Positions 4,405 through 8,749 of a stretch of DNA of 64,000 bases are shown here, piece after piece. Under the pieces are notes generated by a model, which saw nothing but the letters and a program-made list of their open reading frames with translations, did not search any database and was not told the DNA's origin. Source of the DNA: Roseibium sediminicola (GTDB lineage: Bacteria; Pseudomonadota; Alphaproteobacteria; Rhizobiales; Stappiaceae). Made by a program: the position numbers and the translations under genes. The stretch is taken from contig NZ_JALNMJ010000015.1 in the NCBI RefSeq assembly GCF_023156505.1, forward strand, positions 1-64,000, read 5' to 3'. Positions within the stretch are counted from its first letter, which is position 1; each line of letters opens with the position of its first letter.

Positions 4405-5198
4405 ACGCCCATTCCCCCTAATTTTCAGCAAAGAGACCTGCTGGTTTCGGCAAGATTTCTACTTTGGTCGGACGCTCTTGAAAAGGGGCAGAAGGGATGT
4501 CCTTTTTTTAACCTGGAAAATATTTTTGCGCCTGCACTGATAACTGTAGGAAAACGAACGCTAAATTGATTGAACCTCAAGCGTTGCGTCGCAATCAGAT
4601 AAATTTGCGCCGCAGCATTTTCGCGGGTCTTCATGGACATCCTGAAGGCAATTTCCGCGCCTGGACGCTGAGCCGCCTCATTTTGAGACAAGTTCGAGCC
4701 GCCAACACAAACGGCTCCGCTTCGGCCTATGGGCATCACGCCGGCCACCTACTACATCTTGTCGGAACAAAGCCGAAACACCGTTGAATCAGCGATTCGT
4801 CCGGGATTCGTTCACGCTGTGTCCACGGGTAAACGGGCCGGAACTCCGGCACGGCAGCGACCTTTACAATAAATTATCTATTGACAGCGATTCGACGCAA
4901 ACGCGCGCACCAGACGGCCCATGACTCAAACCCTTGACCAGATTCAGGATTTCGTAGCGTCACCCTGCCTCAAGACCACATCTGGTAGGGAACAAATCCT
5001 GAATCGCCAAGAGTCCGCGATTCGGTTTCGGTTTGTTCCGGAGTCGTTCTCCACAGCTTATTTTTGCCAGCAAAAACCTGACCTTTTGGCCAAAAGATAG
5101 GGGACATGCCGTCCCGGCCTGTGCTAGACACGCGGCACCAGATATAGGTGTCCGCTATCCCGACACCGAGCCGTAGAAAGCCGATCACAAGCACTTTC
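4405..5198. other. Intergenic region between divergent pyc and helicase genes
   Basis: About 0.8 kb with no convincing gene; the open frames here are short and have no recognisable product. It must hold the promoters for pyc (minus) and the helicase gene (plus). Visible structure: a perfect 12-base inverted repeat, GATTCAGGATTT (4941-4952) with AAATCCTGAATC (4994-5005), separated by 41 bases, and a short hairpin TTTTTGC-CA-GCAAAAA near 5065-5080. No tRNA or known small RNA was recognised. Confidence 0.6.
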
Positions 5199-8100
5199 AT
5201 GCCCCGTCTCCAGAACCTGCCGCTGCCGCCGTCTGCCCGGTCCCGCACAGTGACGGCCGTGCTCGGCCCCACCAATACCGGCAAGACCCACCTCGCCATC
5301 GAACGCATGCTGGCCCAGCCTTCCGGCCTGATCGGCCTGCCGCTGCGGCTGCTTGCGCGCGAAGTCTATGGCCGCGTCGCCGAACGCGCGGGCGAGGACA
5401 CCGTCGCGCTGATCACCGGTGAAGAAAAGATCATTCCGGAGAAACCGCGCTTCTGGGTCTCGACGGTCGAAGCCATGCCGCTCGACCTCGACACGGAATT
5501 CGTGGCCATCGACGAGGTCCAGCTGGCCGGCAATCTCGACCGCGGCCATGTCTTCACCGACCGGATCCTGAACCTGCGTGGCCGCTCGGAAACCTTGCTG
5601 CTGGGTGCGGCAACCGCCCGCCCGCTTTTGGAAAAACTGCTGCCGGGACTCAATGTCGTCACCCGGCCGCGCATGTCGGTGCTGGAATATGCCGGCTCGA
5701 AAAAGGTCTCGCGGCTGCCGGCGCGCTCCGCGATCGTCGCCTTTTCCTCCGACGAGGTCTATTCGATCGCCGAACTGCTCCGGCGCCAGCGCGGCGGGGC
5801 CGCCGTCGTGCTCGGTTCGCTCAGCCCGCGCACGCGCAATGCCCAGGTGGAGCTGTTCCAGAACGGCGATGTCGACCACCTGGTCGCCACCGACGCCATC
5901 GGCATGGGCCTGAACCTGGATGTTCACCACATCGCCTTTGCCGGCAACCGCAAATATGACGGTTATCAGTACCGTCAGCTGACCCCCTCGGAAATGGGCC
6001 AGATCGCGGGGCGCGCCGGCCGCCACACCAAGGACGGTACCTTCGGCGTAACCGGACGGGTCGATCCGCTGGACGACGAATTGATCCAACGGATCGAAAG
6101 TCACCAGTTTGACAGCCTGAAAGTGCTGCAATGGCGCAACAGTTCCCTGGATTTTTCATCTTCCGCGGCCCTGCGCCAAAGCCTGGATGCGGTGCCCAGG
6201 GAAGAGGGTCTCGCGAGGGCACCGATTGGCGACGACCTCACCGCTCTTGAATATTTATTGCGCGATCGCGCAATATCCGGCATGGCTACGGGCGCAAAAG
6301 CGGTCGAATTGTTATGGGACGTGTGTCAGATCCCCGACTATCGTAAGATCGCGCCGGCCAACCATGCGGAGCTGCTGAACACGATTTACACCCATCTGAT
6401 GCAGGACGGCGCAATCGCCGATGACTGGTTCACCCGTCAATTGGCCTTCGCAGACCGCACGGATGGTGATATCGACACACTCGCGAACCGGATTGCACAT
6501 ATCCGGACGTGGACCTATGTCGCCAATCGACCTGACTGGCTGGCCGATCCGGCTCACTGGCAGGGCGAGACACGCGCCATTGAAGACAAACTATCCGACG
6601 CCCTTCACGAACGGCTTACCCAGCGCTTCGTGGACCGGCGTACAAGTGTATTGATGCGACGTTTGAGAGAGAACGCAATGCTGGAAGCGGAAATTACATC
6701 GAGCGGCGATGTGCTCGTTGAAGGTCAGCACATCGGGAATCTGCTTGGCTTCCGGTTTGCTCCCGACGCGGCGGCCGAGGGACCGGACGGCAAGACCGTT
6801 CGCGCGGCCGCCCAGAAGGCCCTGACCACCGAGATCGAATCCCGTGCTGAAAAGCTCGGCAAGTCGGAGAACAGCGATTTCGTGCTGGCTTCCGACGCCA
6901 CCATCCGCTGGCGCGGCGAACCGGTGGCCAAGCTGGTCGCCGGTGAAGAGGTCCTGGTCCCGACCGTGCTGCTGCTGGCCGACGAACATCTGACCGGTCC
7001 CGCCCGCGATGCGGTTCAAAGCCGGATCGACCTGTGGGCCAAGGCCCAGATCGAAACCCTGCTGAAGCCGCTGGTCGATCTCAAGAACGGCGAAGGCCTT
7101 GAAGGCCTTGCACGGGGCATCGCGTTCCGCATCGTGGAAGGTCTCGGCATTCTCGAGCGTCAGGACGCGGCCGACGAAATCCGTCAACTGGATCAGGACA
7201 TGCGCGCCGGTCTGCGCAAGCACGGCATCCGCTTCGGCGCCTATACCGTGTTCGTGCCCGCGCTTCTGAAGCCGGCGCCGAGCCAGTTGCTGGCCCAGCT
7301 CTGGGCCCTGAAGCACGGTTCTCTTGACATGAACGGCATGACCGAGCTGCCGCAGCTGTCCGCCTCCGGCCGGACGTCCATCCCGGTCGACGAGACCATC
7401 GACAAGGCGCTTTACAAGGTCGTCGGCTTCCGCGTCTGCGGTCCGCGCGCCGTGCGCGTCGACATCCTGGAGCGTCTCGCCGACCTGATCCGGCCGCTGA
7501 TCGCCTGGAAACCGCTCGACGCGGAAGTCAGCCCTCCGGAAGGCGCCGTGGAAACCGGTGGCGGCTTCACCGTCACCGTGGCAATGACCTCCCTGCTCGG
7601 CTGCGCCGGCGAGGATTTCTCAGCCGTGCTGAAGTCCCTCGGCTACCGGGTCGAGACCAAGGAGGTCCAGCGTCCCGTGACTGCCAAGCCGGACGCCGAA
7701 GAGGCCGCTCCGGCGGAACCTGCATCGGCTGAAACGGAAACGGCCCAGGCGGAAGCTTCCGAAGCACCCGCCGAAACCGAGGCGGCCGAGACCGCGCCGG
7801 CGGAACCGGTTGCCGAACTGGCCGGCGCCGGAGCCGATGCCCCCGTAGCGGAAGAGACAGTTGCTATGGCCGAACCGGTGGAAACGCCAGCCGAGCCGGA
7901 AAGTGCAACCGAACCGGCCGCAGAAAGCACCGTTGCCGAGGCTGTGACCTCTGATGAGGCAGCGGCCGATACTGCGCCTGAGGAATCCGCGCCAGTGGAA
8001 ACCGCATCCACCGACACTGCCACCGGCGAACCTGTCGAACTGGAAACGGTGACCATCGAAATCTGGCGGCCGGGCCGCCACGACCGGCGCCCGCGCGGCC

Positions 8101-8348
8101 GCAATGACCAGCGCCGCGGCGACAGCCGCAGGAGCCAGGGCCCGAAGGGTGGCCAGGGCGAAAAACGGCATGGCAAACCCGGCGGCAAGGGCGGTCCGAA
8201 CCGCAACCGCGGGCAGCAGGGCGGCAAGGGCTTTGACGGCGGCAACCGCCGTGACAAGGCGCCTCGCGACAAGCCGATCGATCCGAATTCGCCCTTCGCG
8301 GCCCTGATGGCGCTGAAGGCGGATATGGACAACAAGGACAAGAAGTAA
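5199..8348 (+). CDS. SUV3-like superfamily 2 RNA helicase with long disordered tail
   Basis: About 1049 residues. The N-terminal half has helicase motifs of the SUV3/mitochondrial type: GPTNTGKTH (Walker A, about residue 23), DEVQL (Walker B, about 105), ATDAIGMGLNL and QIAGRAGRH (motif VI). Such proteins are ATP-dependent RNA helicases linked to RNA decay in mitochondria; the role in alphaproteobacteria is less clear. After about residue 820 comes an Ala/Glu/Pro/Thr-rich acidic stretch, then a basic Arg/Gly/Asn-rich end (about 960-1035), likely RNA-binding and unstructured. Start choice: ATG 5199 gives MPRLQNLP before the conserved TVTAVLGPTNTGKTH, as in relatives; an in-frame GTG at 5148 is an alternative. 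Its stop codon overlaps the proposed start of the S4 gene, so the two are probably translationally coupled. Confidence 0.9.
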   Translation: MPRLQNLPLPPSARSRTVTAVLGPTNTGKTHLAIERMLAQPSGLIGLPLRLLAREVYGRVAERAGEDTVALITGEEKIIPEKPRFWVSTVEAMPLDLDTEFVAIDEVQLAGNLDRGHVFTDRILNLRGRSETLLLGAATARPLLEKLLPGLNVVTRPRMSVLEYAGSKKVSRLPARSAIVAFSSDEVYSIAELLRRQRGGAAVVLGSLSPRTRNAQVELFQNGDVDHLVATDAIGMGLNLDVHHIAFAGNRKYDGYQYRQLTPSEMGQIAGRAGRHTKDGTFGVTGRVDPLDDELIQRIESHQFDSLKVLQWRNSSLDFSSSAALRQSLDAVPREEGLARAPIGDDLTALEYLLRDRAISGMATGAKAVELLWDVCQIPDYRKIAPANHAELLNTIYTHLMQDGAIADDWFTRQLAFADRTDGDIDTLANRIAHIRTWTYVANRPDWLADPAHWQGETRAIEDKLSDALHERLTQRFVDRRTSVLMRRLRENAMLEAEITSSGDVLVEGQHIGNLLGFRFAPDAAAEGPDGKTVRAAAQKALTTEIESRAEKLGKSENSDFVLASDATIRWRGEPVAKLVAGEEVLVPTVLLLADEHLTGPARDAVQSRIDLWAKAQIETLLKPLVDLKNGEGLEGLARGIAFRIVEGLGILERQDAADEIRQLDQDMRAGLRKHGIRFGAYTVFVPALLKPAPSQLLAQLWALKHGSLDMNGMTELPQLSASGRTSIPVDETIDKALYKVVGFRVCGPRAVRVDILERLADLIRPLIAWKPLDAEVSPPEGAVETGGGFTVTVAMTSLLGCAGEDFSAVLKSLGYRVETKEVQRPVTAKPDAEEAAPAEPASAETETAQAEASEAPAETEAAETAPAEPVAELAGAGADAPVAEETVAMAEPVETPAEPESATEPAAESTVAEAVTSDEAAADTAPEESAPVETASTDTATGEPVELETVTIEIWRPGRHDRRPRGRNDQRRGDSRRSQGPKGGQGEKRHGKPGGKGGPNRNRGQQGGKGFDGGNRRDKAPRDKPIDPNSPFAALMALKADMDNKDKK

Positions 8349-8749
8349 TTTCCGCGCCTGAGCCTCAAGCTGCTGCCGGCAGCCTGCGCATAGACAAGTG
8401 GCTCTGGTACGCCAGGGTCACCAAATCCCGGTCGCTTGCCCAGAAACTGGCGACCTCCGGTCATGTCCGGGTCAACAAGGACAAGATTGCTTCCGCCAGC
8501 AAGACCATCAAGGCCGGCGATGTCCTGACCGTTGCCCTGGAGCGGCGGGTGCTTGTTCTGAAGGTGCTGGCGCTCGGCACGCGGCGCGGCCCTTTTGAGG
8601 AAGCGCGCAAGCTTTACGAGGATCTGTCGCCGCCGCCACCGCCCAAACAGGACGCGCCGCCCCCGCCGCCAGGCCAGCGCGAGGCCGGCGCGGGCCGGCC
8701 GACCAAGCGCGACCGGCGCAAGATGGATGCCTTTCGCAGCGACGACTGA
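8348..8749 (+). CDS. S4-domain RNA-binding protein (Hsp15-like), apparent ATT start
   Basis: The reading frame encodes about 133 residues with a full S4 domain near the N-terminus: RIDKWLWYARVTKSRSLAQK, then GHVRVNK and AGDVLTV, followed by a Pro-rich linker and a basic end. This is the Hsp15 (HslR)-like family that binds rRNA or stalled 50S subunits. There is no ATG, GTG or TTG in this frame upstream of codon 68 (GTG 8549), which would delete the S4 domain. The best start is ATT at 8348, overlapping the helicase stop (TAATT), with AGGA about 9 bases upstream; relatives often have TAATG at this junction. CTG at 8384 is another possibility. Gene identity is firm; start is inferred. Confidence 0.85.
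   Translation: MSAPEPQAAAGSLRIDKWLWYARVTKSRSLAQKLATSGHVRVNKDKIASASKTIKAGDVLTVALERRVLVLKVLALGTRRGPFEEARKLYEDLSPPPPPKQDAPPPPPGQREAGAGRPTKRDRRKMDAFRSDD

Follow-up and report, generated by a model that had tools for sequence, protein, structure and literature searches.

Conserved non-canonical codons at a helicase stop as the probable translation start of an Hsp15-like S4-domain gene in Roseibium and related genera

The window analysed here is a stretch of 64,000 nucleotides from Roseibium sediminicola (contig NZ_JALNMJ010000015.1, positions 1 to 64,000), in which a gene for a Suv3-like helicase (Pfam DEXQc_Suv3, 7e-25; Helicase_C, 3e-10) is followed by a gene for a small protein with an S4 RNA-binding domain. 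The S4 locus is single copy in this genome, and the next gene downstream is the ferredoxin gene fdxA. The features of the helicase/S4 junction are the following:

5148-8348, plus strand: Suv3-like helicase gene, open from GTG 5148, with stop codon TAA at 8346-8348
8334-8338, plus strand: SD-like motif AAGGA within the helicase tail, nine bases 5' of ATT
8348-8350, plus strand: ATT, the proposed start codon, whose first base (8348) is also the last base of the helicase stop TAA
8348-8749, plus strand: Hsp15-like S4-domain gene, 133 amino acids counted from ATT
8351-8386, plus strand: N-terminal segment from ATT to the S4 domain, evolving as coding DNA in the S4 frame
8384-8386, plus strand: CTG, codon -1 of RIDKW, rejected as a general start but a possible extra start in some species
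8387-8527, plus strand: S4 RNA-binding domain (Pfam PF01479, protein residues 14-60)
8398-8421, plus strand: hairpin (10-bp stem, 4-base loop) early in the coding sequence, with Arg codon AGG

The open S4 frame spans 8255 to 8749; its first ATG, GTG or TTG is GTG 8549, codon 68 when counted from ATT, which is located past the end of the Pfam S4 match (codons 14-60). The observations of a first-pass annotation made from the letters of the window, namely a complete S4 domain in a frame devoid of canonical start codons before codon 68 and a TAATT junction with AGGA about nine bases 5' of the ATT, were thus both confirmed in the window. Its expectation that related genes often carry TAATG at this place was not borne out, as neither TAATG nor TGATG occurs in any of the 110 distinct loci for which the helicase stop was mapped; the in-frame overlaps among these loci are of the TAATT/C/A and NTGA types.

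With regard to the encoded protein, the Pfam S4 domain is matched at 2.8e-11, and a profile of the family aligns almost end to end with Hsp15 structures, with values ranging from 6.8e-19 (1dm9) to 1.3e-16, as well as the YabO/RqcP structure 7aqc at 1.1e-9. The NCBIfam equivalog cut-off for Hsp15 is not reached (42.5 bits vs. 148), and the protein is therefore named Hsp15-like only. This Hsp15-like protein probably binds the 50S subunit: Hsp15 and RqcP are described in the accessible part of the literature as S4 proteins on 50S-nascent-chain complexes (PMC11317155), and the Roseibium protein resembles them by profile match. It differs from Hsp15 in scoring below the equivalog cut-off, and its role in Alphaproteobacteria is a predicted one.

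The gene was matched in 85 of 87 genomes of the family and the junction was read in all 85. Forty-eight carry a non-canonical codon in the S4 frame at the helicase stop, either overlapping it or lying just after it (ATT in 31, ATC in four, ATA in one and CTG in 12), while the other 37 are conventional. The non-canonical type comprises 42 of 44 Roseibium genomes and all six genomes of two further genera. Within Roseibium, where the gene is present in 44 of 45 genomes, the comparison of junctions proposed by the first-pass annotation as a check shows that ATT, ATC or ATA (AUH in the mRNA) is kept in 35 of 44 (30, four and one genomes, respectively), always overlapping or directly following the helicase stop. 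Five of the 44 exhibit CTG overlapping a TGA stop (CTGA), two (L037 and L133) have CTG shortly after the helicase stop, and L033 and L034 (R. litorale and R. suaedae) have an ATG eight codons 5' of the S4 domain. The second genus, g28, has CTGA in five of five genomes and the third, g29, TAATT in its one genome (L151); the remaining 35 family genomes, belonging to four genera, start with ATG, GTG or TTG. No canonical codon is present in the open frame before the S4 domain in 43 of the 48 non-canonical genomes. The other five contain an internal one (TTG at codon -1 in L028 and L036, GTG at -11 in L031, GTG at -7 in L051 and TTG at -4 in L135) and could use a conventional start instead.

A sequencing or assembly error at position 8350, which the first-pass annotation had wished to see excluded, has in its favor solely that ATG would be an ordinary codon. 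The same junction is found in 35 of 44 Roseibium genomes, which are separate assemblies and in some cases complete, so that the base at 8350 is not a sequencing error, the chance of which we regard as negligible.

Outside the family, 20 loci from the order were read in a first search, and L045 alone was without a canonical start, offering only a CTG after an in-frame TGA. Of 113 new matches in further genomes of the order 83 were read, and in 80 of these a canonical start lies no more than 25 codons away, the exceptions being L247 with CTGA, L251 with none and L264 with a GTG 32 codons upstream. Non-canonical starts of the S4 gene are therefore rare outside the family. L045 (genome G054, the one genome of its family) and L247 (genome G148) stem from two other families of the order and have only CTG, in L247 as CTGA, as a plausible start, and they may represent independent cases. 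In L251 (genome G125) the S4 frame is open for 69 codons upstream without any ATG, GTG or TTG.

Translation of the S4 gene from the ATT overlapping the helicase stop, the central proposal of the first-pass annotation, appears well supported by the conservation of the junction, the coding periodicity downstream of it, the keeping of the frame and the SD-like motif. Comparison of the genomes gives a conserved junction, an absence of canonical starts and coding constraint that sets in just after the ATT. The segment between ATT and domain is fast-evolving, and periodicity was assessed on the tree for 27 of the 35 Roseibium AUH genomes, those falling into two gap-free length classes: changes at the three codon positions numbered 29/17/54 (p=0.0007) for the class of 19 genomes and 16/17/30 (p=0.0055) for the class of eight. 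The non-coding spacer of 10 Pseudovibrio-type genomes, which served as control, shows no third-position excess (14/6/9, p=0.69). The distance from ATT to the domain amounts to 36, 39, 42, 45, 48, 51 or 60 bases and the frame is kept in all; L021 and L025 bear an extra base that turns TAATT into TAGATT and alters the frame relative to the helicase, with the frame from ATT into the S4 domain kept. All 47 non-canonical genomes tested carry one of the motifs AGGA, GGAG, GAGG or AAGG at a distance of 4-17 bases 5' of the junction codon, as compared to two of 47 with such a motif before codon -1 and 18 of 40 canonical relatives with one before the chosen start, although the motif resides within helicase codons, so that part of its conservation may be owed to the helicase protein, which weakens this evidence. 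In all 35 genomes the ATT, ATC or ATA is followed by a codon for P, S, T or A, as would be expected of a processed N-terminus, but these residues are also frequent in the segment.

ATT, ATC and ATA together form the isoleucine codon set, and their conservation taken alone could reflect the residue. Each of them would be read as Ile if frameshifting or readthrough of the stop yielded the S4 domain solely as part of a helicase-S4 fusion, and in the window the stop-free S4 frame does reach upstream into the helicase gene. Such a fusion is nevertheless very improbable. The relation between S4 and helicase frames varies within Roseibium, being -1 mostly and another in L033 and L034, while both genes share one frame with TAG or TGA between them in L021, L025, L037 and L133; no repeated slippery heptamer was noticed at the junction when it was inspected by eye. 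In eight of the 35 AUH genomes an S4-frame stop lies 1-6 codons 5' of the ATT, which speaks against a fusion and means that there is no earlier start in those genomes. The varying frame relation and the in-frame stops led us to reject a fusion as the common mechanism. Initiation further downstream, at GTG 8549 or some other canonical codon, was likewise rejected: the first such codon differs between genomes, and L004 and L011 have none within the first 60 codons.

For the evolution of the junction codon, a tree of 87 rows was derived from helicase and S4 proteins by a quick method that left 30 of 84 inner branches open. On this tree two changes are needed for the canonical, three for the AUH and four for the CTGA character, and these few changes imply that non-canonical starts have been kept over long times. 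The junction reads CTGATT in L031 (R. aestuarii) and CTAATT in L036. Conversion of the helicase stop from TGA to TAA would destroy a CTG start and leave ATT as the next codon, and the CTGATT of L031 is a plausible intermediate between the CTGA and TAATT types. In the 31 core rows four changes are counted at the third position of the start codon, three to C, one to A and none to G, where 2.9 changes to G would be expected at the rate of 16 fourfold sites; given four changes, the chance of none to G is about 0.2 (fourfold sites split 12:6 for T-to-C/A vs. T-to-G), so that avoidance of ATG at the S4 start is no more than hinted at. In the available part of a survey of 61,358 reconstructed AUG starts, one switch to AUU and two to CUG are listed (PMC5622118).

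The hairpin at 8398-8421 marks nearly the same clade as the non-canonical start. It was spotted after viewing a fold, and its support consists of synonymous constraint and clade contrast. Across 35 AUH genomes the hairpin averages -15.8 kcal/mol as opposed to -5.8 kcal/mol for synonymous recodings, with a mean rank of 0.010; the corresponding values are -13.2 and -5.6 for 10 CTGA genomes and -5.3 and -5.0 for 40 canonical-start genomes. Synonymous diversity in the hairpin clade is 0.21 inside vs. 0.52 outside the hairpin (p=0.002), and in the canonical-start relatives it is 0.57 both inside and outside. The hairpin is clade-specific and held by AGG Arg and CTC/CTT Leu codons, the canonical-start relatives being without it except for L033 and L034. 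The AGG codon is used in 43 of 47 non-canonical and two of 40 canonical genomes (L033 and L034); outside this table, L166, with a GTG start, has AGG and L151 CGG. No compensatory double change was found when covariation within the hairpin was looked for, and the junction region of 141 bases as a whole is not unusually structured (z=+0.82). A repeat element was discarded because the genome has no second copy of the hairpin sequence when up to three mismatches are allowed. A second small hairpin just 5' of CTG 8384 was also dropped, as it ranks at 0.35 on average against synonymous recodings and below 0.05 in only two of 35 AUH genomes. Structures involved in ribosome termination, as described in the accessible part of PMC7518266, sit directly after the stop and inhibit re-initiation, and this explanation was not adopted. 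A binding site of the S4 protein, a site of ribosome pausing and an aid to an internal CTG start are candidate roles for the hairpin.

The last of these roles touches on the start at CTG 8384, which the first-pass annotation had named as an outcome that would overturn its proposal and in which the upstream sequence would be a leader. The hairpin begins 14 bases 3' of the first base of this CTG, 32 of the 35 Roseibium AUH genomes carry CTG and two TTG at codon -1, and in those of the 36 AUH genomes (L151 included) that have neither codon there, L134 and L151, the full hairpin or its AGG is missing as well. In those same two genomes the junction retains ATT and codon -1 reads TTA or CAG, and L035, L138, L145 and L157 possess a strong hairpin without CTG at this position. 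Codon -1 is CAG, CTT, CTC or TTA in 11 of 48 non-canonical genomes, and CTG is frequent at Leu codons elsewhere in the S4 gene (28 of 35 genomes at one site). Together with the coding periodicity 5' of CTG 8384, the 11 genomes lacking CTG and TTG refute CTG 8384 as the general start, and the rarity of an SD-like motif before it also counts against it; we judge hairpin-assisted translation from this codon in place of ATT to be distinctly improbable. An extra internal start at CTG in some species is possible.

A different task for the hairpin would be autoregulation, in which the S4 protein binds the hairpin of its own mRNA and represses its own translation, with the weak start rendering repression effective. 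The RNA-binding domain of the protein, the stability of the hairpin above that of synonymous recodings in the 35 AUH genomes and the lowered synonymous diversity within it, confined to the clade, all fit this idea, while its position about 50 bases 3' of the ATT places the hairpin outside the initiating ribosome, L134 and L151 combine ATT with an absent hairpin, and L033 and L034 combine the hairpin with ATG. The missing double changes and the unexceptional folding of the junction region argue in the same direction. The hairpin is at most a candidate for an autoregulatory site of the S4 protein, and we consider this explanation unlikely.

We regard it as highly probable that the S4 gene is translated from the non-canonical codon at the helicase stop, weakly, in a manner coupled to the helicase and probably sensitive to IF3. 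AUU in R. sediminicola and AUU, AUC, AUA or CUG in its relatives, overlapping or adjoining the helicase stop, would constitute the start codon; the SD-like motif in the helicase tail would bring the ribosome to it, whether through termination-reinitiation or through direct entry; and the poor start codon would keep the output of S4 protein low and tied to translation of the helicase. Initiation at ATT, coupling, IF3 sensitivity and low dosage are what we infer from the comparison. Stop and start overlap or adjoin as is typical of a coupled pair; the junction is TAATT in the window, and most non-canonical genomes have either this form or CTGA. Such an overlap, together with an SD-like motif located within the helicase tail, is consistent with re-initiation after the helicase stop, direct entry being an alternative.

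After the canonical codons, AUA, AUU and AUC are the next best start codons. As far as the accessible sources go, a CUG start reaches 0.86% of the efficiency of AUG (PMC11497404), near-cognate starts are repressed by IF3, and IF3 autoregulates its own synthesis via infC (PMC5472188). Since AUU, AUC, AUA and CUG belong to the type of codon that IF3 disfavors and infC itself starts with AUU in Roseibium, S4 output is, by analogy, probably IF3-sensitive. The comparison with infC drawn in the first-pass annotation proved apt for this genus. Of 28 Roseibium genomes matched, 23 infC loci were read (29 of 30 loci overall, with L191 lacking an anchor), and all 23 start with ATT, preceded by GAGGAG or CAGGAG, the 20 codons upstream being free of ATG, GTG and TTG. 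The infC gene of the window's genome (locus L211 on contig C45 of genome G000, at about 259213-259713 on the minus strand) has ATT with GAGGAG upstream. The S4 gene is like infC, known with AUU, AUC or AUA in connection with IF3 autoregulation, in its conserved near-cognate start and SD motif. On the other hand, infC has ATT throughout and no stop overlap in the loci read, whereas the S4 start varies between ATT, ATC, ATA and CTG at the helicase stop.

A wider reading, which we put forward tentatively and hold to be rather doubtful, would place a rescue-like factor in the fidelity regulon of IF3: the start would be set by its position, that is, by helicase stop and SD-like motif, and not by codon identity, so that the codon could drift among AUU, AUC, AUA and CUG with AUG selected against, and the hairpin would be a dedicated element of the control. 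If this were true, the level of free IF3 would set IF3 and the rescue-like factor together.

To our knowledge, characterised bacterial genes with near-cognate starts are few. Judged by the accessible parts of the respective papers, sigR of Streptomyces with its GTC start is similar in that a non-canonical start limits expression and is misplaced by automatic annotation, with repression by IF3 demonstrated for sigR (PMC5472188). It differs in codon and gene, and in the sigR-rsrA pair the start that takes part in the ATGA overlap is that of the downstream gene rather than the non-canonical one. Staphylococcus cvfC1 (AUU) and ccpN (AUA) likewise have conserved non-canonical starts that cut expression, to about 10% of that with AUG in poor medium (PMC13009471), and these are accompanied by extended SD motifs, in contrast to the modest AAGGA at the stop-start overlap of the S4 gene. 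Termination-reinitiation pairs are alike in that stop and start share bases and coupling is expected, with overlaps of the types ATGA and TGATG (PMC6728339) in place of the TA-ATT and CTGA junctions described here. No account of a non-AUG start for this gene was recognised in the accessible literature, subscription journals lying mostly outside the search. The junction is real and conserved, and its best explanation is that translation of the Hsp15-like protein begins at a non-AUG codon overlapping the helicase stop.

Gene finders that assume ATG, GTG or TTG can miss or truncate such genes, and in the present case the first standard start would remove the S4 domain. Roseibium offers a natural series of AUU, AUC, AUA, CUG and AUG at one locus, in which the effects of start codon, stop overlap and IF3 on expression could be compared. 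If control by IF3 is real, ribosome rescue would be linked to the fidelity of initiation. The conservation of a seemingly weak start in nearly the whole genus suggests a built-in brake on the amount of S4 protein.
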